DNA from: Actinophytocola gossypii
GTDB taxonomy: Bacteria; Actinomycetota; Actinomycetes; Mycobacteriales; Pseudonocardiaceae
Assembly: GCF_025165815.1 (NCBI RefSeq)
Contig: NZ_JAFFZE010000004.1
Span: 310,001 to 374,000, forward strand
Length of the DNA: 64,000 nt
Direction of reading: 5' to 3'
A program made the translations under genes and the position numbers. Below the pieces are notes generated by a model. That model saw only the letters and a list, made by a program, of their open reading frames with translations, ran no database searches and was not told where the DNA came from. Positions 14,375 through 25,121 of this stretch are shown here, piece by piece (the stretch's first letter is position 1; each line of letters starts with the position of its first letter).

Positions 14375-15099
14375 TGACCCGTCCGACCGCGCTGGTGACC
14401 GGCGCGAGCCGCAACATCGGCCGCGCCACCGCGCTCGCCCTCGCCGGCGCCGGGCACGACCTCGCGCTGCTGGCCAGGACCGACCGCGCCGCCGAGTCGG
14501 TGGCCGCCGAGGTCGAGGCGGCGGGCGCGCGGGCGCACGTGGTGCTCGCCGACGTCCGGGACGGCGACGCCGTGCGGGCGGCCGTGGCCGAGGTGACCGA
14601 GGCGCTCGGTCCGGTGGCGGTGCTGGTGAACAACGCCGCCGTCCGCCGGGAGCAGCCGTTCAGCGACATCACCGACGAGGACTGGCGGGAGATCCTTGGT
14701 GTGGTGCTCGACGGCGCGTTCCACTGCTCGGCGGCGGTGCTGCCCGGGATGGTCGAGCGCGGCGGCGGGCGGATCGTGAACATCGCCGGGGTGACCGGGC
14801 AGACCGGCGCCGCGTCGCGCGCGCACGTCGTGACGGCGAAGGCCGGGATCATCGGTCTGACCAAGGCCCTCGCGGTCGAGTACGCCGCCGAGGGCGTCAC
14901 GGTGAACGCGGTCTCCCCCGGCCTGATCGACACCGTCCGGGACGGCATCCCCCACCACCACAAGGGACGGCCGATTCCGGTCGGCCGGCCGGGCAGCCCG
15001 GACGAGGTGGCGGCGGCGGTCCGCTACCTGGCCTCGCCCGAGGCGGCGTTCGTCACCGGGCAGACCGTCAACGTCAACGGCGGCCTCTACCTGGGGTGA
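14374..15099 (+). CDS. SDR family protein lacking the catalytic Ser and Tyr
   Basis: 241 residues with the Rossmann cofactor motif TGASRNIG (residues about 9-16) and NNAA. The catalytic tetrad is broken: where classical SDRs have NISS...YxxxK, this protein has VNIAGVTG and AHVVTAKAG, so the Ser position (139) is Gly and the Tyr position (152) is Val, while Lys156 is kept. It therefore cannot use the usual SDR proton-transfer chemistry. The C-terminus (FVTGQTVNVNGG) is normal for FabG-like proteins. The ATG at 14374 overlaps the AbrB stop and has GGGAGG upstream. It is the last gene of its operon and overlaps the convergent citE-like gene by 13 bases. Confidence 0.85.
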   Translation: MTRPTALVTGASRNIGRATALALAGAGHDLALLARTDRAAESVAAEVEAAGARAHVVLADVRDGDAVRAAVAEVTEALGPVAVLVNNAAVRREQPFSDITDEDWREILGVVLDGAFHCSAAVLPGMVERGGGRIVNIAGVTGQTGAASRAHVVTAKAGIIGLTKALAVEYAAEGVTVNAVSPGLIDTVRDGIPHHHKGRPIPVGRPGSPDEVAAAVRYLASPEAAFVTGQTVNVNGGLYLG

Positions 15100-15878
15100 G
15101 GTTCACCCGCGCGGCGCAGCAGGCTCCTGGCGCGCAGCAGCACCGGGCGGTCGACCATCCGGCCGTCCACCGCGGCCGCCCCGCCGGCCGACCCGGCGGC
15201 GAGGACGCGGCGTGCCCAGTCCAGTTCCGCGTCGGACGGCCGGAGCGCGGCGTGCACCGGGTCGACCTGTCGAGGGTGGACGCACAGCTTGCCGGTGAAC
15301 CCCAACTCGACCGCGTGCTCGGTGTCCCGGCGCAGGGCGTCCGGATCGTCGAGGGCGGTGGTCACGCCGTCCAGCGGGGGCGCGCAGCCGGCCGCCGCCG
15401 CGGCCAGGACGAGCGCGGACCGGGCGTGCAGCAGCGCGGTGTGCGAGTCCGGGTCGACGCCCAGCTCGACGGCGAGGTCGATGCTGCCGAACGCGGGCCG
15501 CGCGACGCCGGGCACCGAGCACACCTCGCGGGCGGCCGCGACGCCGACGGCGGTCTCCACCAGCGGGATCACCGGGACGTCCAGCCGTTCGACGTCCTCC
15601 GGGCGTTCCGCCTTGGGCAGGACGAACGCGGTGGCGAGCCCGGTGAGGGCGGCGACGTCGGCGGCGTGCCAGGGGGTGTCGGCGGCGTTGACCCGGACCA
15701 GCGCGGTGCCGCCGGCGGCGAGCCAGCGGCGGGCGTGGTCGCGCGCGGTGTCCTTGCCGGCCGGGGCGACCGCGTCCTCCAGGTCGATGATCACCCCGTC
15801 GGCGCCCGACGCGGCGGCCTTGGCGAACCGGTCCGGCCGGTCGCCGGGCACGAACAGCAACGTACGGGCGGGGATCAT
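15087..15878 (-). CDS. HpcH/HpaI (CitE-like) acyl-CoA lyase
   Basis: 263 residues, the length of CitE-like lyases (citramalyl-CoA, malyl-CoA or HMG-type). The N-terminus RTLLFVPGDRPDRFAKAAASGADGVIIDLEDAV is diagnostic. Mg-binding acidic residues are visible in VIPLVETAVGV and FGSIDLAVELG, and the C-terminal GKLCVHPRQV is conserved. The enzyme would cleave a 3-hydroxyacyl-CoA to acetyl-CoA plus a 2-oxo acid. It follows the MaoC gene with an ATGA overlap, so hydration and cleavage are probably consecutive steps, as Ich and Ccl are in itaconate breakdown. The substrate is inferred. Confidence 0.85.
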   Translation of the reverse strand: MIPARTLLFVPGDRPDRFAKAAASGADGVIIDLEDAVAPAGKDTARDHARRWLAAGGTALVRVNAADTPWHAADVAALTGLATAFVLPKAERPEDVERLDVPVIPLVETAVGVAAAREVCSVPGVARPAFGSIDLAVELGVDPDSHTALLHARSALVLAAAAAGCAPPLDGVTTALDDPDALRRDTEHAVELGFTGKLCVHPRQVDPVHAALRPSDAELDWARRVLAAGSAGGAAAVDGRMVDRPVLLRARSLLRRAGEPHPR

Positions 15879-16867
15879 GCCGTCACCACCGTGAACCGCC
15901 AGTCCAGCACCGGTCGGGGGTCGGCGGTGCCGGCGCGGGCCTCGACCGTGGTCCGGAGGTGGAGCAGGCCGCCGGTGGCGAGCGGGTCGCGGGCGGTCAC
16001 CTCGACCGTGCTGGTCAGCGAGTCGCCCTCGTGCACGGGGCCGGTGTGGTCGCAGCCGTCCCAGCTCGTGACGGTGACGATGTTCGGGATCGCGCGGCAC
16101 ACCTGGGCCAGCGCGACGCCGATGGTGTGCCCGCCGTACACCAGCCGGCGGCCGCCCGCGGACACCTCGTCGTGGTGGGCCATCGCGATGTTGGCGGTCA
16201 GCCGGGCCAGCTCCGGGGCGCTGGACACCACGTCCGCGCCGGCCACCCGCCAGGTCCGGCCCACCGGCAGGTCGGCGAAGTGCTCCCCCGGCGCCCGGTC
16301 GCGGAACGCGGCGAGGTCCCAGCCGTCGAGCGGGGGCGCGGGCGGGGTGGTCACGCCGAGGCCGGTGAGGTCGTCGCGGTGGCCGGTCTTCCGGTCCGGG
16401 TCGCGCAGCGGCAGCATCGCGCAGCGCCAGAAGTCCAGCACCGGCCGGTCGTGCTGGTCGACGGTGGTGATGCGCAGCGCGGCCAGACCGGTCGGCGCGC
16501 GGCCCGGCCGCCGGGTGTTCTCCCGCAGCCCGACCACCTCGGTGACCGTGCGCAGGGTGTCGCCGAGCACCGGGAAGCGGCGGAACGCGAGACCCCGGTA
16601 GAACAGGTTGGCCCGCACGTGCTGGGTGACCACTGTGGACTGCCCGATGGCGGTGTCCCAGACCAGTGCGGGATGCGCGAGCGGGCCGGCACCGGTGACC
16701 TCGGCGGCCAGCGCGTGGTCGAGCGGGAGCCGCAGCCGGTCGCCGAGCACCGCCTGGTGCGCGGCGGCGTGCCCGTCGGTGAGCGTCACCCCGGGCGCGC
16801 CGGTGAACCGGTCGCCGACGGACAGCTCGTCGAAGCAGGGGCCTTCTGATTTATCCGGCCATATCAT
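15875..16867 (-). CDS. MaoC-family acyl-CoA hydratase (mesaconyl/itaconyl-CoA hydratase-like)
   Basis: 330 residues forming a double hot-dog, close to the length of mesaconyl-CoA hydratases. The N-terminal half begins FDELSVGDRFTGAPGVTLTDGHAAAHQAVLGD; the C-terminal half contains LTANIAMAHHD and GRRLVYGGHTIGVALAQV, which carries the His of the hydratase site. I start at ATG 16867 because homology begins at once (PCFDELSVGDRF); the open frame to 17227 runs into the divergent gene. It reads out divergently from the fourth MmgE/PrpD gene and overlaps the CitE-like gene by 4 bases. Confidence 0.8.
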   Translation of the reverse strand: MIWPDKSEGPCFDELSVGDRFTGAPGVTLTDGHAAAHQAVLGDRLRLPLDHALAAEVTGAGPLAHPALVWDTAIGQSTVVTQHVRANLFYRGLAFRRFPVLGDTLRTVTEVVGLRENTRRPGRAPTGLAALRITTVDQHDRPVLDFWRCAMLPLRDPDRKTGHRDDLTGLGVTTPPAPPLDGWDLAAFRDRAPGEHFADLPVGRTWRVAGADVVSSAPELARLTANIAMAHHDEVSAGGRRLVYGGHTIGVALAQVCRAIPNIVTVTSWDGCDHTGPVHEGDSLTSTVEVTARDPLATGGLLHLRTTVEARAGTADPRPVLDWRFTVVTA

Positions 16868-16952
16868 GCAGGTCACCTTAGGCCGGGCTTGACAGCTCGG
16901 ACAACGCGACGTGAGATTGGCCGTACATTTACTCGACGGATCCGGAGCGCCG

Positions 16953-18155
16953 ATGACATCCACCGCGACATCCACCGCGGAAAGGCTGGCCGCCTGGGCG
17001 CACGACCTGCGGCCGACCGACGAGGACCGGGCGCTCGCGCGGCGCGCGCTGCTGGACACGGTCGCGGTGACCGCCGCCGCGCGCGGGAGCCGGATGGCGG
17101 CGCTCACCACCGGCCTCTCCCCCTCGGCCCGCTGGGCGGCCGTCGGCCACGTCCTCGACTTCGACGACCTGCACCTCCCGTCGACCGCGCACATCAGCGT
17201 GGTCTGCGTGCCGGCCGCGCTGGCCACCGGCGGCGGCGCGGACGCCTACCTCGCCGGCGCCGGGGTGCTGGCCAGACTCGGCACCGCGCTCGGCTGGTCC
17301 CACTACGCCCGCGGCTGGCACGTCACCTGCACCGCGGGGGCTCCGGCGGCCGCGGTGACCGCCGCGGTGGCGCTCGGGCTGTCGGCCGAGCGGACCGCGC
17401 ACGCGATCGCGCTGGCCGTCCCGCAGGCCGGCGGCGTGCAGGCGGCGTTCGGCTCGGACGGCAAGGCGCTCCAGGTCGGGCTCGCCGCCGAGGCCGGGGT
17501 GCGCGCGGCCCGGCTCGCCGCGGCCGGCGCCACCGCCGACCCGGCCGCGCTCGACCAGTGGCTGGCGCTGGTCGGCGACGCGCCGGAGGTCGACCTGAGC
17601 GGCCCCGCGGTGCCGGGCGGGCTCGCGATCAAGCTGTTCCCCTGCTGCTACGCGCTGCAGCGCCCGATCGCCGCGCTCCGCGAGCAGCTGCCGAAGACCT
17701 CGGCCGAGGAGGTCGGGCGGATCGTCGTGCGCACCACCGCGTCCAGCGTGCAGCCGCTGCACCACCACCGCCCGGACACCGGGCTGCGAGGCAAGTTCAG
17801 CCTGGAGTACGCGCTGGCCGCCGCACTGCTCGACGACCACCCCGGCTTCGCGAGCTTCACCGACGAAGCGGTACGCCGCCCGGCGGCCCGGCGGCTGGTG
17901 GAGCTGGTAGAGGTGGTGCTCGAACCCGGTGGCGAGGGCCTGCTCAACGGCGAGGCCGACATCGAGCTGACCATGGCCGACGGCTCCCGGCCCCGCGCGC
18001 GGCTGGCCCTACCGCCAGGCGCGCCCCAGCGCCCGCCGACCGACACCGAACTCGCCGAGAAGCTCGCCGCCTGCGACGCCGCCGACCTGGTCGGCCTCGA
18101 CTGGTCCGGCGCCGCCGCCTTCCTCGGCGACCTCCTGCCGGGAGAAGCCGCATGA
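16953..18155 (+). CDS. MmgE/PrpD family protein (paralog 4, short and divergent)
   Basis: 400 residues, about 40-50 shorter than the other three. The active-site segment is altered: VLDFDDLHLPSTAHISVVCVPAAL replaces the usual DDTH...HPG, so Thr becomes Leu and HPG becomes HIS, although the Asp pair and the second His are kept. A lysine is present in SDGKALQVGLAAEAG. The deviation suggests a different substrate from paralogs 1-3. I start at ATG 16953 with GGAG upstream, not 16911. It overlaps the first copy of the 74-bp repeat by 4 bases (ATGA). Confidence 0.8.
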   Translation: MTSTATSTAERLAAWAHDLRPTDEDRALARRALLDTVAVTAAARGSRMAALTTGLSPSARWAAVGHVLDFDDLHLPSTAHISVVCVPAALATGGGADAYLAGAGVLARLGTALGWSHYARGWHVTCTAGAPAAAVTAAVALGLSAERTAHAIALAVPQAGGVQAAFGSDGKALQVGLAAEAGVRAARLAAAGATADPAALDQWLALVGDAPEVDLSGPAVPGGLAIKLFPCCYALQRPIAALREQLPKTSAEEVGRIVVRTTASSVQPLHHHRPDTGLRGKFSLEYALAAALLDDHPGFASFTDEAVRRPAARRLVELVEVVLEPGGEGLLNGEADIELTMADGSRPRARLALPPGAPQRPPTDTELAEKLAACDAADLVGLDWSGAAAFLGDLLPGEAA

Positions 18156-18521
18156 GCGAGCTTGCGAGCGAATCAATGTCACAGGGCGACCGCGAGCGGC
18201 AGCACCGAGCCTGCGAGGGGCTGTCATGAGCGAGCTTGCGCGCGAATCAATGTCACAGGGCGACCGCGAGCGGCAGCACCGAGCCTGCGAGGGGCTGTCA
18301 TGAGCGAGCTTGCGCGCGAATCAATGTCACAGGGCGACCGCGAGCGGCAGCACCGAGCCTGCGAGGGGCTGTCATGAGCGAGCTTGCGCGCGAATCAATG
18401 TCACAGGGCGACCGCGAGCGGCAGCACCGAGCCTGCGAGGGGCTGTCATGAGCGAGCTTGCGAGCGAATCAATGTCACAGGGCGACCGCGAGCGGCAGCA
18501 CCGAGCCTGCGAGGGGCTGTC
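18152..18521 (+). repeat. Five tandem 74-bp repeats forming a chain of overlapping 25-codon mini-cistrons
   Basis: Copies begin at 18152, 18226, 18300, 18374 and 18448; the next gene starts at 18522. Each copy opens with ATGAGCGAGCTTGCG, encodes a 25-residue peptide (MSELA...CEGLS), and ends with GAGGGGCTGTC followed by the ATGA that is both its stop and the next start. GAGGGG is spaced 5-6 bases from each following ATG and can serve as ribosome site. Because 74 is not a multiple of three, no long frame runs through the array. Copies 1 and 5 read GCGAGCGAATC where copies 2-4 read GCGCGCGAATC, so the array grew from inside. The last copy delivers its ribosome site to the CoA-transferase gene. 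Confidence 0.9.
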
Positions 18522-19703
18522 ATGAGCGCGCCACTGGACGGCGTCACCGTCGTCAGCCTCGAGCAGGCGGTCGCCGCGCCGTACGCGACCCGGCAGCTCG
18601 CCGACCTCGGCGCCAGGGTGATCAAGGTGGAGCGGCCGGACGGCGGGGACTTCGCCCGCCGCTACGACGAGTCCGCGCTCGGCCAGTCCAGCTACTTCGT
18701 CTGGCTCAACCGGTCCAAGGAGTCGCTCACCCTCGACGTCAAGCACGAGGCGGGCGCGCGGGTACTGCACGAGCTGATCGCCGAGGCCGACGTGTTCGTG
18801 CACAACCTCGGGCCCGGCGCGGCCGAACGGCTCGGGGTGCACGCCGAGCCGCTGCGCGCCAGGAACCCGAGGCTGGTGCACTGCACGATCTCCGGCTACG
18901 GCACCAGCGGCCCGTGGTCCGACCGCAAGGCCTACGACCTCCTGGTGCAGTGCGAGACCGGGTTGGTGTCGCTCACCGGAACCCCAGAGGACACGGCGAA
19001 GGTCGGCATCTCGGTGGCCGACATCGCCGCCGGCATGTACGCCTACTCCGGCGTCCTCACCGGACTGCTGCGCCGGGCCAACACCGGCGAGGGCACCGCC
19101 GTCGAGGTGTCGCTGTTCGAGGCGCTCGCCGAGTGGATGGGCCAGCCCGCCTTCTACACCCGCTACGGCGGCACTCCACCCTCGCGGGTCGGCGCCCAGC
19201 ACGCCACGATCGCGCCGTACGGCCCCTACACCAGCCGCGACGGCGACACCGTGGTGCTGGCCGTGCAGAACGAGCGTGAGTGGGTCGCGCTGTGCCGGAT
19301 CCTGCTCGACGACGCGGGCCTGGCCGACGATCCTCGGTTCGCCACCGGATCGGCCAGGGTCGCCAACCGGGACGCGCTCAACGCGCTGATCGGCGCCCGG
19401 TTCGCCGAGCTGGACACCCCGAGCGCGCTGGCGCTGCTCGACCGGGCCGGAGTGGCGAACGGCCGGGTCAACACGGTGCCGGACTTCCTGGACCACCCGG
19501 TGCTCGCCGAACGCGGCCGGTGGCGCCGGGTCGGCAGCCCGAACGGCGAGCTGACCGCGCTCGCGCCACCGGTCGACCTGACCGGGGTCGAGCCGGTGCT
19601 GAACCCGGTGCCCGCCCTGGGCGAGCACACCGACGCCATCCTGCGCGACCTCGGCCGCACCGACACCGAGATCGCCGACCTCCGCGCCGCCGGCGCCGTC
19701 TGA
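18522..19703 (+). CDS. Family III CoA-transferase (CaiB/BaiF type)
   Basis: 393 residues. The N-terminal Rossmann part (VVSLEQAVAAPYATRQLADLGARVIKVERP) and the conserved RSKESLTLDVKHEAG are diagnostic. The catalytic aspartate is expected in KAYDLLVQCETGL, followed by VGISVADIAAGMYA. Such enzymes move CoA between carboxylates, including succinyl-CoA to itaconate, mesaconate or citramalate. The ATG at 18522 follows the final 74-bp repeat, which provides its ribosome site. With MmgE/PrpD, MaoC and CitE genes close by, activation of an unsaturated C5 dicarboxylate is a reasonable guess, not a demonstrated role. Confidence 0.9.
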   Translation: MSAPLDGVTVVSLEQAVAAPYATRQLADLGARVIKVERPDGGDFARRYDESALGQSSYFVWLNRSKESLTLDVKHEAGARVLHELIAEADVFVHNLGPGAAERLGVHAEPLRARNPRLVHCTISGYGTSGPWSDRKAYDLLVQCETGLVSLTGTPEDTAKVGISVADIAAGMYAYSGVLTGLLRRANTGEGTAVEVSLFEALAEWMGQPAFYTRYGGTPPSRVGAQHATIAPYGPYTSRDGDTVVLAVQNEREWVALCRILLDDAGLADDPRFATGSARVANRDALNALIGARFAELDTPSALALLDRAGVANGRVNTVPDFLDHPVLAERGRWRRVGSPNGELTALAPPVDLTGVEPVLNPVPALGEHTDAILRDLGRTDTEIADLRAAGAV

Positions 19704-19712
19704 GGGGAACCC

Positions 19713-20858
19713 ATGCTCAGCCACGAGGAACAGGCCATCGTCGACACCGTGCGGGACTTCGTCGACCGCGAGGTCCGCCCGGTCGCGCGGGAGCTGGAGC
19801 ACGCCGACACCTACCCGGAGAAGCTGATCGAGCAGATGAAGCGGCTCGGCGTCTTCGGGCTGGCGATCCCCGAGCCCTACGGCGAGGTCGCCGTCTCCAC
19901 CGCCTGCTACGTGGCGGTCACCGAGCAGCTGGCACGGGGCTGGATGAGCCTGGCCGGCGCGATGGGCGGGCACACCGTGGTCGCCAAGCTGATCCACCGG
20001 TTCGGCACCGAGGAGCAGAAGCGGCACTACCTGCCGAGGATGGCCACCGGCGAGGTGCGCGCGACGATGGCGCTGACCGAACCGGGCGGCGGGTCGGACC
20101 TGCAGGCGCTCACCACCACCGCCCGCCGCGACGGCGACGAGTACGTGGTCAACGGCACCAAGACCTGGATCACGAACTCCCGCCGCTCCCAGGTGATCGC
20201 GCTGCTGTGCAAGACCGACCCGGCCGCGACGCCCCGGCACGCCGGCATCAGCATCCTGCTCGTCGAGCACGGCCCCGGCCTGACCGTCTCCCGCGACCTG
20301 CCGAAGCTGGGCTACAAGGGCGTGGAGAGCTGCGAGCTGTCCTTCGCCGACCACCGGGCGCCCGCCACCGCGCTGCTCGGCGAGCAGGAGGGCCGGGGGT
20401 TCGCGCAGATGATGACCGGGTTGGAGACCGGGCGGATCCAGGTGGCATCCCGGGCGCTCGGCGTCGCCCGCGCGGCCCTGGACGACTCGCTGCGCTACGC
20501 CCAGGAGCGGGAGTCGTTCGGCAAGCCGATCTGGCGCCACCAGTCGGTCGGCAACCTGCTGGCCGACATGGCGACCAAGTACACCGCGGCCCGCCAGCTC
20601 GTGCTGCTCGCCGCGGCCAGGCACGACGCGGGCGAGCGTGCCGACCTGGAGGCGGGCATGGCCAAGCTGTTCGCGTCCGAGGCGGCGATGGAGATCGCGC
20701 TGAACGCGGTCCGCGTGCACGGCGGCTACGGGTACTCCACCGAGTTCGACGTGGAGCGCTACTTCCGGGACGCGCCGCTGATGATCGTCGGCGAGGGCAC
20801 CAACGAGATCCAGCGCAACGTGATCGCCTCCCAGCTCGTCGCCCGCGGCCTGCCCTAA
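19713..20858 (+). CDS. Acyl-CoA dehydrogenase (MCAD-type catalytic Glu)
   Basis: 381 residues with the full acyl-CoA dehydrogenase architecture: N-terminal helical domain, the beta-domain signature MALTEPGGGSDLQAL with TWITNS, and the C-terminal helices. The FAD-dependent enzyme introduces a double bond next to a CoA thioester. The catalytic base is placed as in medium-chain enzymes: the Glu of VGEGTNEIQRNVI near the C-terminus. It starts 9 bases after the CoA-transferase stop, so the two proteins probably act on the same acyl-CoA, with electrons passed to ETF. Confidence 0.9.
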   Translation: MLSHEEQAIVDTVRDFVDREVRPVARELEHADTYPEKLIEQMKRLGVFGLAIPEPYGEVAVSTACYVAVTEQLARGWMSLAGAMGGHTVVAKLIHRFGTEEQKRHYLPRMATGEVRATMALTEPGGGSDLQALTTTARRDGDEYVVNGTKTWITNSRRSQVIALLCKTDPAATPRHAGISILLVEHGPGLTVSRDLPKLGYKGVESCELSFADHRAPATALLGEQEGRGFAQMMTGLETGRIQVASRALGVARAALDDSLRYAQERESFGKPIWRHQSVGNLLADMATKYTAARQLVLLAAARHDAGERADLEAGMAKLFASEAAMEIALNAVRVHGGYGYSTEFDVERYFRDAPLMIVGEGTNEIQRNVIASQLVARGLP

Positions 20859-20868
20859 GGTGCGGCCC

Positions 20869-21609
20869 ATGGCGAACCGGCCCGAGGCGGCCTACCAGCG
20901 GCTGGGCCGCACCCTGCGCGACGCGATCCTGCGCGGCGGGTACGCCGGCGGGGTGCGGCTGCCGACCGAGGCGGAGCTGGCCGCCGAACACGGGGTCAGC
21001 CGGCAGACCGTGCGGCGCGCGTTCCACGACCTGGTCGCCGAGGGCCTGGTGCAGCGGGTGCCCGGCCGGGGCACGTTCGCCGCGCCGAGGCACGGCCAGT
21101 ACCTGCGGCAGTTCGGCTCGGTGGAGGACCTGCTGGCGCTGTCCCTGGACACCCAGCTGCGGCTGGTGGACCCGCTGCGCCGGCAGGTCGACGTGGAGGC
21201 GGCCAGCAGGCTGCGGCTGGACGCCGACGCGGTGCACCGGGTGCGGTTCCGGCGCCTGCACCACGACGTTCCGTTCTGCCTGACGACGGTGTACCTGCCG
21301 CCGGACGTCGGCGACCGGCTGGCCGCCCTGCCCCAGCTCACCGAGGCGGGAGCGGTCAGCGACGTCACGGTGATCGGCCTGATCGACGAGCACACCGCGA
21401 AGCCGATCGCCGAGGCCGAGCAGAGCATCACCGCCGTCGCCGCGACCACCGCCGTCGCCGAGCACCTCGGCTGCGCGCCGGGCGACCCGCTGCTGCGGGT
21501 GGACCGCACCTACCTGACCACCGACGGCACCCCGGTCGAGCTGGCGATCAGCCACTTCCTGCCCGAGCACTACTCCTACCGGGTCCGGCTGCGGCGCGGG
21601 CCCCGGTGA
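20869..21609 (+). CDS. GntR family regulator, HutC subfamily (UTRA domain)
   Basis: 246 residues. The N-terminal winged helix (YQRLGRTLRDAILRGGYAGGVRLPTEAELAAEHGVSRQTVRRAFHDL...GRGTF) is a standard GntR DNA-binding domain at residues about 8-70. The rest is a UTRA effector domain ending in a HutC-like VELAISHFLPEHYSY. I use the ATG at 20869 with AAGGTG 6 bases upstream, instead of GTG 20860. It lies 10 bases after the acyl-CoA dehydrogenase and probably controls the MmgE/PrpD-CoA-transferase operon in response to a pathway acid. Confidence 0.9.
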   Translation: MANRPEAAYQRLGRTLRDAILRGGYAGGVRLPTEAELAAEHGVSRQTVRRAFHDLVAEGLVQRVPGRGTFAAPRHGQYLRQFGSVEDLLALSLDTQLRLVDPLRRQVDVEAASRLRLDADAVHRVRFRRLHHDVPFCLTTVYLPPDVGDRLAALPQLTEAGAVSDVTVIGLIDEHTAKPIAEAEQSITAVAATTAVAEHLGCAPGDPLLRVDRTYLTTDGTPVELAISHFLPEHYSYRVRLRRGPR

Positions 21610-21610
21610 C

Positions 21611-22261
21611 TCAGAGCAGCGGCACGTCCAGGCGGGCGCGCAGCTCGGCGAGCGTGGTGCCGAACGTCTCGGTCACCCGCACGCCGTCCCCGGTCAGGTG
21701 GAACACGGCCCGGTCGGTGTAGACCCGGCTCACGCAGCGCAGCCCGGTGACCGGGTACGCGCACTCCGGGACCAGCTTCGGGGTGCCGTTCCTGTCGAAC
21801 AGGGACATCATCACGAACACGTCCTTGGCGCCGACGGCGAGGTCCATGGCGCCGCCGACCGCGGGGATCGCGTCCGGGGCACCGGTGTGCCAGTTGGCCA
21901 GGGTGCCGTCCGCGGCGACCTGGAACGCGCCGAGCACGCACACGTCGAGGTGCCCGCCGCGCATCATCGCGAACGACAGGGCGTGGTCGAAGTAGGCGGC
22001 GCCGGGCAATTCGGTGACCGGGATCTTGCCGGCGTTCACCAGGTCCGGGTCGACGTCGTCGCCGTGCGCCATCGGGCCCATGCCGAGCATGCCGTTCTCG
22101 GTGTGCAGCACGACGTCGGAGTCCGGTCCGAAGTGGTCGGCGACCGCGGTCGGCTGGCCGATCCCGAGGTTCACGAACGACTTCCGCGGGATGTCCCCCG
22201 CTACCAGCCTCGCCAGCTCGTCGCGGTCCAGCGGCCCTCGGTCGGCGTGCTCGACGGTCAT
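21611..22261 (-). CDS. 3-oxoacid/3-oxoadipate CoA-transferase subunit B
   Basis: 216 residues of the class I CoA-transferase beta subunit (PcaJ/ScoB-like). The catalytic glutamate sits in LHTENGMLGMGP (residues about 53-64), which forms the glutamyl-CoA intermediate. VNLGIGQPTAV is the CoA-binding entry loop, and AVGAKDVFVMM is also conserved. The ATG at 22261 overlaps the subunit A stop by 4 bases. It is the last gene of a seven-gene minus-strand operon and ends one base before the convergent GntR gene. With the thiolase beside it, it would activate and then cleave a beta-keto acid such as 3-oxoadipate. Confidence 0.9.
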   Translation of the reverse strand: MTVEHADRGPLDRDELARLVAGDIPRKSFVNLGIGQPTAVADHFGPDSDVVLHTENGMLGMGPMAHGDDVDPDLVNAGKIPVTELPGAAYFDHALSFAMMRGGHLDVCVLGAFQVAADGTLANWHTGAPDAIPAVGGAMDLAVGAKDVFVMMSLFDRNGTPKLVPECAYPVTGLRCVSRVYTDRAVFHLTGDGVRVTETFGTTLAELRARLDVPLL

Positions 22262-22917
22262 GGGGTCACCACCACCCGGTCGACGAAGATGCCCGGGGTG
22301 ACGACGGCCTCCGGGTCGATGCCGCCGACCGGCACGACCCGGGTCACCTCGGCGACGGTCAGCCGCGCGGCGGTCGCCATGATCGGGCCGAAGTTGCGGC
22401 CGGTCTTGCGGTAGACGAGGTTGCCGGCGTGGTCGGCGGTGTGCGCGCGGATCAGCGCGACGTCGGCGTGGATCGGGTACTCCAGTACGTGCTCACGGCC
22501 GCCGATGACGCGGGTCTCCTTGCCCTCGGCGAGCATCGTGCCCGCGCCGGTCGGGGTGTAGAACGCGCCGATACCGGCGCCCGCCGCGCGGATCCGCTCG
22601 GCGAGGTTGCCCTGCGGGGCGACCTCCAGCTCGATCCGGCCCGCCCGGTACAGCTCCTCGAACACGAACGAGTCCACCTGCCGGGGGAACGAGCAGATGA
22701 TCCGGCGGACCCGGCCGGTGGCGAGCAGCGCGGCGAGCCCGGTGGTGCCGTTGCCCGCGTTGTTGTTCACCACCGTCAGGTCGCCCGCCCCGCCACGCCG
22801 CAGGGCGTCGATGAGCGCGTACGGCTGCCCGGCCGCGCCGAACCCGCCGATCAGCACGGTCGAGCCGTCGGCGATCCCGCGGACGGCCGCGTCGGTGTCG
22901 GGTGCGATCTCCACCAT
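22258..22917 (-). CDS. 3-oxoacid/3-oxoadipate CoA-transferase subunit A
   Basis: 219 residues of the alpha subunit (PcaI/ScoA-like). The glycine-rich CoA-binding segment IADGSTVLIGGFGAAGQPYALIDAL is at residues about 15-39, followed by NNNAGNGTTGLAALL and PQGNLAERIRAAGAGIGAFYTPTGAGT, the signature of this subunit. It starts 6 bases after the thiolase stop and overlaps subunit B. The high similarity to 3-oxoadipate CoA-transferases suggests, but does not prove, that the physiological acceptor is a C6 beta-keto diacid. Confidence 0.9.
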   Translation of the reverse strand: MVEIAPDTDAAVRGIADGSTVLIGGFGAAGQPYALIDALRRGGAGDLTVVNNNAGNGTTGLAALLATGRVRRIICSFPRQVDSFVFEELYRAGRIELEVAPQGNLAERIRAAGAGIGAFYTPTGAGTMLAEGKETRVIGGREHVLEYPIHADVALIRAHTADHAGNLVYRKTGRNFGPIMATAARLTVAEVTRVVPVGGIDPEAVVTPGIFVDRVVVTP

Positions 22918-24128: not shown

Positions 24129-25121
24129 TCAGGTCTGGGTGGACGCGGCCAGTTCGATGCTGCGGCGGGCGACCTCCGGCGGCGTGCCGTACGGCGCGAC
24201 CCGCAGGTTGACCGTGGTGACGCCGAGGTCGGCGTAGCGGCGCAGCGCGTCGCCGACCTCGGCGGGCGTGCCGACCAGGGCGGGCACGGCCGGCTCCTGG
24301 TCGTCCCGGGTGGACTTCCACAGCCCGCGCCCGGTGTAGTAGTCGAGGACGGGCGCGAGGTGCCGCGCGGCGAGGTCGCGGGCGGTGTCGCCGTCCGGGT
24401 GGACCAGGCACAGCCGGTTCACCACGACGTCCCCGGTCGCGCGCTCCCGGTACGCCGCGGCCTGCCGGGCCAGCAGCCGGTCGGTGTAGTTGGTGGCGGC
24501 GTAGTAGCCGTCGGCCAGCTCCACCGCCCGCCGGACCGACGCGGCGGTACCGCCGCCGACCAGGATCCGGGGACCGCCGGAACCGGCCGGACCACCGGAA
24601 CCGGCCGGACCACCGGAACCGGCCGGACCACCGGAACCGGCCGGACCACCGGAACCGGCCGGACCACCGGAACCGGCATGGCCGAACGGGCCGGGGACCA
24701 CGCCGTCCGCCCAGGCGGCGCGCAGCTCGCGCAGGGTGCCGTCGAGGAGTGCGGCGCCCGGTCGGTCGCCGCACCCGAACCGATCGCCCAGTTCGGCGGG
24801 GCCGAGGCCGAGGCCGACGGTCAGCCGGCCCTCGACGAGCTGGTCCACCAGCGCGGTCTCGTAGGCGAGCCGGGCCGGGTCGTAGGCGCGGAGCAGCAGC
24901 ACCCCGGTGCCGAGCCGCAGCGGGGTGAGCGCCGCGAGGTGCGCGAGCACGACCAGCGCGGCCGGCAGGTGGAACGGCTCCGGCCGCCGGTGGTAGCTCT
25001 CCCCCACCCACACGCCGTCCACCCCGGCCTCCGCCGCGGTGCGCAGCAGCGGCAGCGCGGCGGAGACCTGGCCGGCGACCGGAGCCGCCGACCCGAGGTC
25101 GAGTGCCAGACCGAGTCTCAT
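24129..25121 (-). CDS. Luciferase-like flavin-dependent monooxygenase with internal minisatellite
   Basis: 330 residues of the bacterial luciferase-like (F420/FMN) TIM-barrel family: LRTAAEAGVDGVWVGESYHRR, LTPLRLGTGVLLLRAYDPARLAYETA, LVEGRLTVGLGLGPAE, and the late GTPAEVGDALRRYADLGVTTVNLRV. Residues about 148-184 are a low-complexity (GSGGPA)n linker just before the conserved RILVGGG strand; it is encoded by six 18-bp repeats and is not part of the normal fold. The ATG at 25121 overlaps the binding-protein stop (ATGA). It probably oxygenates the compound imported by the neighbouring ABC transporter; cofactor choice is open. Confidence 0.8.
   Translation of the reverse strand: MRLGLALDLGSAAPVAGQVSAALPLLRTAAEAGVDGVWVGESYHRRPEPFHLPAALVVLAHLAALTPLRLGTGVLLLRAYDPARLAYETALVDQLVEGRLTVGLGLGPAELGDRFGCGDRPGAALLDGTLRELRAAWADGVVPGPFGHAGSGGPAGSGGPAGSGGPAGSGGPAGSGGPAGSGGPRILVGGGTAASVRRAVELADGYYAATNYTDRLLARQAAAYRERATGDVVVNRLCLVHPDGDTARDLAARHLAPVLDYYTGRGLWKSTRDDQEPAVPALVGTPAEVGDALRRYADLGVTTVNLRVAPYGTPPEVARRSIELAASTQT
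24571..24678 (-). repeat. Six-copy 18-bp in-frame minisatellite
   Basis: Six head-to-tail copies of an 18-bp unit, GGACCACCGGAACCGGCC on the plus strand, at 24571, 24589, 24607, 24625, 24643 and 24661. The first has one change (GGACCGCC...) and the last ends in A instead of C. The unit is a multiple of three, so copy-number change only lengthens or shortens the Gly-Ser-Gly-Gly-Pro-Ala linker of the monooxygenase. Confidence 0.95.

Follow-up and report, generated by a model that had tools for sequence, protein, structure and literature searches.

A tandem array of a dispersed, MIRU-like repeat between two operon genes of Actinophytocola gossypii

The array and its neighbourhood

The window, i.e. 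the whole stretch of 64,000 nucleotides analysed here (G000:C16:310001-374000), belongs to the 7.38-Mb, 53-contig genome assembly of A. gossypii (G000). Five 74-bp units lie head-to-tail on its forward strand at 18152-18521, between the stop codon of an MmgE/PrpD-family gene and the start codon of a CoA-transferase gene (Table 1). A single array is reported by TRF at this place (18151-18528, period 74, 5.1 copies, 99% matches), and its score of 742 is the highest among the 14 TRF rows of the window. ATGA opens every unit, and each 25-codon open reading frame (ORF) closes on the TGA of the following ATGA, giving a 25-25-25-25-25 codon chain that runs up to the CoA-transferase start at 18522. 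The ORF of 75 bases exceeds the unit by one base, which brings its TGA onto the ATGA that follows and restores the phase at each copy. The initial annotation had described five 74-bp, 25-codon units chained stop-to-start by ATGA, a description borne out by TRF, the sequence and the ORF chain. It had also placed the expansion inside the array, in agreement with the base common to copies 2-4, which by sequence reading carry GCGCGCG where copies 1 and 5 carry GCGAGCG. The copy number of five is that of one draft assembly. A profile made partly from the five array units themselves detects these units at E-values of 8e-25 to 6e-24, with no other match in the window below E 3.8. Finally, Rfam gave 0 matches at the gathering score in the window, and a known RNA family was rejected on this basis.

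Table 1. Features of the array and of the two genes that flank it (positions within the window)
Feature	Position	Strand	Remarks
MmgE/PrpD-family ORF, 414 aa as listed	16911..18155	+	stop TGA inside the array's first ATGA; Pfam PF03972/PF19305
Unit 1, 74 bp, GCGAGCG variant	18152..18225	+	mini-ORF 18152-18229, MSELASESMSQGDRERQHRACEGLS
Unit 2, GCGCGCG variant	18226..18299	+	mini-ORF 18226-18303
Unit 3, GCGCGCG variant	18300..18373	+	mini-ORF 18300-18377
Unit 4, GCGCGCG variant	18374..18447	+	mini-ORF 18374-18451
Unit 5, GCGAGCG variant	18448..18521	+	mini-ORF 18448-18525, closes on the ATGA of the CoA-transferase start
5' hairpin (unit 5 shown; units 2-4 differ by one base)	18448..18469	+	covariation
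3' hairpin (unit 5 shown)	18494..18521 (arms 18494-18502 and 18513-18521)	+	covariation and fold
GAGGGG, Shine-Dalgarno-like	18511..18516	+	5 nt before the CoA-transferase ATG; putative role
CoA-transferase family III gene, 393 aa	18522..19703	+	start = ATG at the array's right end; Pfam PF02515

The genes at 15087-22917 resemble a catabolic cluster (CitE-like lyase, MaoC-type protein, MmgE/PrpD, CoA-transferases, acyl-CoA dehydrogenase and GntR regulator), perhaps for itaconate or a similar acid, as read from the ORFs with Pfam on two genes only. Another tandem repeat of the window, of 18 bp (24571-24677, 5.9 copies, 98% matches), lies inside a long minus-strand ORF; its length being divisible by 3, each copy means six residues more.

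A dispersed family inserted at RTGA

The 74-bp unit is a dispersed repeat of the genus Actinophytocola (Pseudonocardiaceae), and more divergent relatives of it occur in other families of the order. In A. gossypii itself, 46 places match the unit at E<=1, many of them short, and an nhmmer profile together with the flanks defines 10 full sites (the window array, L006, L007, L008 with two units, L010, L011, L012, whose right end is unclear, L013, L014 and L017) and 2 partial ones (L015 and L016). With at most 40 candidates scored per genome, five of the six genus genomes had matches at E<=1e-5, namely G005 (66), G003 (34), G000 (16), G002 (11) and G001 (4), with 0 in G004. Matches at E<=0.01 are present in 38 of 60 genomes, A. 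gossypii included, many of these being stretches of 20-40 bases. The 5' 24-mer with at most 2 mismatches occurs in 19 of 150 genomes sampled from the order, as against one match in one genome for the reversed control; with one position freed and at most one mismatch, it occurs in 2 of 198 genomes sampled from the phylum, G000 being one of them. In total, 129 arrays were collected in 139 loci, 11 loci being without a match, and 110 of the arrays are full. Besides the window array, multi-copy arrays include L008, L050 and L137, and other assemblies hold arrays of 2-3 units. The search of related genomes proposed in the initial annotation thus found the unit dispersed, in arrays of differing copy number at gene junctions, and a plain tandem duplication was rejected on the ground of this dispersal.

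Further away, 20 regions of other genera or families (L236-L255, some from the same family) are alike at the 5' end and differ in their middles, the right-hand RTGA being often present; some of them are tandem, with a spacing of 63, 65, 75 or 95 bases. One of these regions (L245, in G065) has three 95-bp units ahead of a gene that itself starts with ATGAGCGAGCTCGCGAGC, the element's own 5' end, which is either a fused element or a hint of the origin of the 5' hairpin. The 23-base 5' pattern had no exact match in viral contigs and plasmids gave no blastn match at E 1e-3, by which phage or plasmid carriage was ruled out. No account of the unit sequence was found in the open-access papers searched, four unit stretches and the peptide being in none of them.

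Outside A. gossypii, a protein search of 41 genomes found four close MmgE/PrpD orthologues and three more matches at 41-42% identity. In G005 and G010, nothing but an ATGA overlap leading to the CoA-transferase start lies at the window junction, and the array is thus an insertion between two operon genes, as the initial annotation had it. By reading, the G010 gene seems internally deleted further on, and the orthologue of G023 has a different downstream context. At the same junction in G003 (L160), the CoA-transferase has a new N-terminus, through in-frame fusion with what seems to be the first part of an element.

Filled and empty sites are also found at the starts of other genes, whose names, here and at similar sites, come from reading and not from a family search. 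The hemA start is filled in G000, in G002 and, with an element of a different class, in G005, and empty in G001, G003 and G004; the ybeY start carries an element in G000 and G002 but none in G001, G003, G004 and G005. Further junctions were sought with joined queries for 10 sites of G003/G002 and 7 of G024, which gave no usable counterpart for L067, L080, L087, L090, L095 and L098; L097 has A on both sides and is hence uninformative on the left or right R. At the 11 informative sites, where the left R differs from the right R, the empty relative is matched by the left R in 7 cases and by the right R in 2, the other 2 being mixed. More precisely, the nearest empty relative agrees with the left R at hemA, L088, L152, L078, L070, L071 and L079 (the relatives are not unanimous at L152 and L071), and with the right R at L058 and L076. 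The mixed cases are L073 and the L089 site, where the left R is the A of the empty site in four congeners of G024 and the G024 copy has G on the left and A on the right. In G024, all 12 single units have A as the right R, and the left R is A in 6 and G in 6. These observations lean towards a scheme in which the target RTGA stays on the left and the element supplies the right one, on a small count and in a context where A/G changes are easy. Among the single units, the left and right R (R5/R3) are G/G in 35, A/A in 22, G/A in 16, A/G in 10 and others in 3, an agreement above chance (p 0.0014); as R5 and R3 differ in many units, the TGA at most is duplicated, and a simple 4-bp target duplication was rejected. 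At L276, in G001, a 14-bp stretch (2 mod 3) runs from a left ATGA to a right GTGA where G003 holds a 77-bp element, and looks like a deletion remnant.

Reading frame, peptide and hairpins

An unbroken chain of -4 overlaps runs through 96 of the 110 full arrays, among them rearranged arrays whose ORFs are fused to 35-75 codons, so that the stop-to-start chaining claimed in the initial annotation holds at differing copy numbers; the strict chain is broken in 14, two of these misses (L029 and L111) being one array counted twice. The 86 single units with both ends found measure 77 bp (46), 74 bp (32), 62 bp (2), 76 bp (2), 59, 75, 80 and 88 bp, i.e. 2 mod 3 in 82 of the 86. According to GC3, the frame of the downstream start is coding in 82 of 86 single units, which thus lie in the sense of the downstream gene. 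The frame of the upstream TGA is coding in 62 of 85 and not coding in 23, ybeY being an example of a plain start codon with a non-coding upstream frame, where the mini-ORF becomes a leader. Within arrays, the spacing at the 44 unit-to-unit junctions is 2 mod 3 with NTGA in 27, 0 in 14, where read-through is possible, and 1 in 3. At six sites compared between species, all 17 elements (14, 59, 65, 74 or 77 bp) have a length of 2 mod 3 and close on a -4 overlap, these sites having been picked as occupied in at least two genomes and some elements being perhaps separate insertions. For the arrays with enough flank, translation simulated from the first RTG onwards enters the coding frame downstream in 115 of 124 and misses it in 9, a result for which the control, counting any NTGA as a restart, was uninformative, shifted starts succeeding in 208 of 248 cases. 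In L051, L054 and L143, a 30-bp piece of the unit is itself repeated within the array; corresponding to 10 codons, it keeps the frame.

The encoded peptide shows no sign of constraint. The 65 distinct 74-bp units have 64 amino-acid changes, 24 silent changes and 1 stop, the expected numbers being 64.0, 22.1 and 2.9, and the 32 distinct 77-bp units have 62, 22 and 2, as against 60.3, 23.1 and 2.6; besides, third codon positions are not the most variable. In the 77-bp class, single-base insertions rewrite the first half of the peptide and the total length stays 2 mod 3, the consensus peptide starting with VSGACGANH in this class and with MSELASEPM in the 74-bp class. Pfam gave no match for the 25-amino-acid peptide. 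The frame is intact in all five units of the window and comprises 25 or 26 codons in most copies, as would be expected of a functional product; such a product, which the initial annotation had envisaged as made and active, is nevertheless highly improbable given changes that hit amino acids as often as chance, with neither a codon-position signal nor a silent excess in either length class, and given the frameshift that swaps half of the sequence. The conserved peptide of a leader-peptide regulator is likewise not seen, and the best reading of the peptide is that of a passenger.

Covariation places a hairpin near each end of the element, and does not by itself tell DNA from RNA. The 5' hairpin, RTGAGCGAGC-TT-GCGAGCGAAY, includes the start codon or RTGA and pairs R1 with Y22, standard pairs alternating with tandem G.A; in RNA, its turn GCTTGC would correspond to a CUUG tetraloop with a closing G-C pair. 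The 3' hairpin joins unit positions 47-55 with 66-74, its last base adjoins the next start codon, and four of the six bases of GAGGGG lie in its 3' arm. When the window unit is folded, the outer six pairs of this hairpin have a probability of 0.97-1.00 and two inner ones of ~0.7. In terms of corrected mutual information, 50-71 and 51-70 are the top two pairs of the 74-bp class and 1-22 is the seventh, and in the 77-bp class the matching pairs rank first to third and fifth. In the 74-bp class (A1), 86.4% of the cells are paired and 80 are changed on both sides, compared to 30.1 in shuffles (0/500 as high), the corresponding values for the 77-bp class (A2) being 88.3%, 59 and 19.2 (0/500); as the copies are related by descent, these shuffle counts cannot be read as probabilities. 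With the partner slid by 1-3 columns, the covariation score falls by a factor of three or more, and re-dealing the hairpin arms among copies weakens the folding, with 0 of 200 re-dealings reaching the native value in either class. The count of further pair types is not above shuffles in the two classes (51/500 and 493/500 at least as high). Weak pairs of the 74-bp class are 52-69, unpaired in 30 of 65 sequences, and 53-68, unpaired in 61 of 65. RNAalifold alone favoured another pairing in both genus classes and picked the covarying 3' stem in the G024 class; despite this choice, the 3' stem is retained because of covariation and the single-sequence fold.

Concerning the R1-Y22 pair, the first units of 126 arrays have A-T in 47, G-C in 58, G-T in 7, A-C in 8, C-C in 3, and A-A, T-A and C-G in 1 each, with an association chi-square of 52.9 when stratified by genome. 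In the more distant regions L236-L255, this pair is G-C or A-T in 25 of 27 places. According to a review on coupled genes, structure right after the stop codon correlates with weaker coupling (PMC12548453), which argues against the 5' hairpin helping.

Known systems and the origin of the array

Several known systems share features with the Actinophytocola repeat. MIRU, the mycobacterial interspersed repetitive units, were reportedly described by Supply et al. in 1997. The review on coupled genes presents them as short, dispersed repeats that enter at start codons, with an inner ORF coupled at -4 (PMC12548453), and the nearest analogy named in the initial annotation is thereby borne out in behaviour. 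The copies in senX3-regX3 reportedly measure 77 and 53 bp, both 2 mod 3. To the extent of these descriptions, the Actinophytocola repeat is like MIRU in its many short copies dispersed in one genome (10 full sites in A. gossypii), in its insertion at start codons with an inner ORF coupled at -4, as seen from the full arrays and the empty sites, in its orientation with the downstream gene and in a length that would preserve coupling. It differs in its range, which covers Pseudonocardiaceae and certain further families of the same order, in its 74- and 77-bp classes and in its two covarying hairpins, which the MIRU descriptions consulted do not mention and which are not known to have been described for MIRU. 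The likeness thus holds in behaviour, the level at which the two families were compared. IS200/IS605 and REP/RAYT elements have end hairpins, which the Actinophytocola element shares with them, and insert beside a fixed tetranucleotide, as it may also do; for an entry just 3' of a target tetranucleotide without target duplication, its 11 informative sites are divided (left R in 7, right R in 2, mixed in 2). Unlike these elements, it maintains a reading frame throughout, and no Y1 transposase was found in the A. gossypii genome (0 matches of PF01797 in G000, 5 of 14 control genomes being positive), so that a Y1-transposase passenger was rejected. The enterobacterial RU-type small mobile sequences are similar in being non-autonomous dispersed repeats, of 103, 127 and 168 bp, with ORFs; their description names intergenic and intragenic sites but no RTGA insertion with a coupled frame (PMC2759123). 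Finally, translationally coupled gene pairs are described as combining the -4 overlap with structure near the downstream start (PMC12548453), as found here; in contrast to such pairs, the coupling cassette of Actinophytocola is an insertion present at many places and able to repeat in tandem.

Taken together, these data suggest, with a probability that we put at roughly three in four, that the array is a tandemly amplified, non-autonomous, MIRU-like insertion element that carries a translation relay and enters beside a start-codon RTGA. The element would enter beside this RTGA, often a stop/start overlap, in the orientation of the downstream gene. The relay would consist of a frame, in most cases 25 or 26 codons long, from the left RTGA as start to the right RTGA as end, with the Shine-Dalgarno-like stretch just ahead of the right start. 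A ribosome finishing the upstream gene could then re-start on the mini-ORF, stop at the next ATGA and go on to the downstream enzyme; being handed on unit by unit, it would leave the operon readable with one or many copies. On this reading, ribosomes would pass through the whole array. The 3' hairpin may hide the ribosome site, shutting the next start to free ribosomes until a ribosome that is already translating opens it, and the five copies probably arose by slippage or unequal crossing-over. One may speculate further, on a reading that we consider rather unlikely, that GAAY in the 5' hairpin is an internal guide pairing with the target RTGA (R-Y and T-A as standard pairs, tandem G.A between), T22 copies going to ATGA and C22 copies to GTGA. 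The element would then be guide-read and aimed at start codons, with a hairpin-gated ribosome relay and a fresh right RTGA, and moved by a non-Y1 enzyme.

A real, though minority, possibility is that the covarying hairpins serve mobility, as signals in single-stranded DNA, and not as RNA gates, the relay frame being a survivor of selection against polar insertions. The association of R1 with the internal Y22, with C-G and T-A seen once each, fits such signals, as does the left R, which equals the empty relative in 7 of 11 cases as if the target RTGA had stayed on the left, and the anatomy of end hairpins beside a tetranucleotide recalls IS200/IS605 and REP. However, no Y1_Tnp was found in the A. 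gossypii genome, and an RNA role is natural for a 3' hairpin that contains the Shine-Dalgarno-like stretch and whose end adjoins the start codon. At the ybeY site, moreover, pairs 48-73 and 50-71 are changed on both sides and still pair in the G002 copy, but 51-70 is lost, and 52-69 and 53-68 pair in neither copy. It is unlikely that the array is a selected regulatory tuner, in which copy number or hairpin strength would set the ratio of CoA-transferase to MmgE/PrpD protein. Five copies here and the other multi-copy arrays (L008, L050, L137 and others) speak for it, and the MIRU between senX3 and regX3 is reported to drive senX3-independent regX3 expression (PMC4213456). In the same line, identity within the element is higher than at third codon positions at the g20 site, and also at hemA between G000 and G002 (69/74 versus 0.68). 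On the other hand, it is close to third-codon-position identity at ybeY (53/74, near 0.74) and at paaC between G002 and G003 (58/74, near 0.77), and G005 and G010 manage with a plain ATGA overlap at the window junction. Since elements occur at many unrelated genes, tuning of the downstream enzyme, the other option of the initial annotation, is more plausibly a by-product of their presence than its cause.

A promoter for the downstream genes within the array is very doubtful. One is reported for the MIRU-bearing senX3-regX3 region of mycobacteria (PMC4213456), whereas no sigma-70-type site was predicted in 17900-18800, and neither a sigma-70 promoter nor a terminator in the array; as actinobacterial promoters can differ, this negative result is weak evidence. 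An assembly artefact or a simple local duplication is hardly credible as the source of the tandem copies. Three G005 arrays (L050, L141 and L157) do run to contig ends, an indication that array size is hard to assemble and that short-read assemblies may undercount. Nevertheless, the junction is empty in two relatives, single copies recur elsewhere in A. gossypii and arrays of 2-3 units are found in other assemblies, which settles the initial annotation's concern that the repeat might occur only here as an artefact.

The insertion element with a translation relay that we favour thus belongs to a large MIRU-like family with two covarying hairpins, not found in the open-access papers searched and behaving in a known way. 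MIRU are a staple of tuberculosis strain typing, and, to our knowledge, how such repeats live in operons has been the subject of little comparative testing. The 129 arrays of the Actinophytocola family amount to more than 100 natural insertions, with copy numbers from one to several; together with the covarying stems and the sites that are empty in sister species, they make the coupling mechanism, i.e. hairpin opening versus re-initiation, and the choice of start codons directly testable in soil bacteria.
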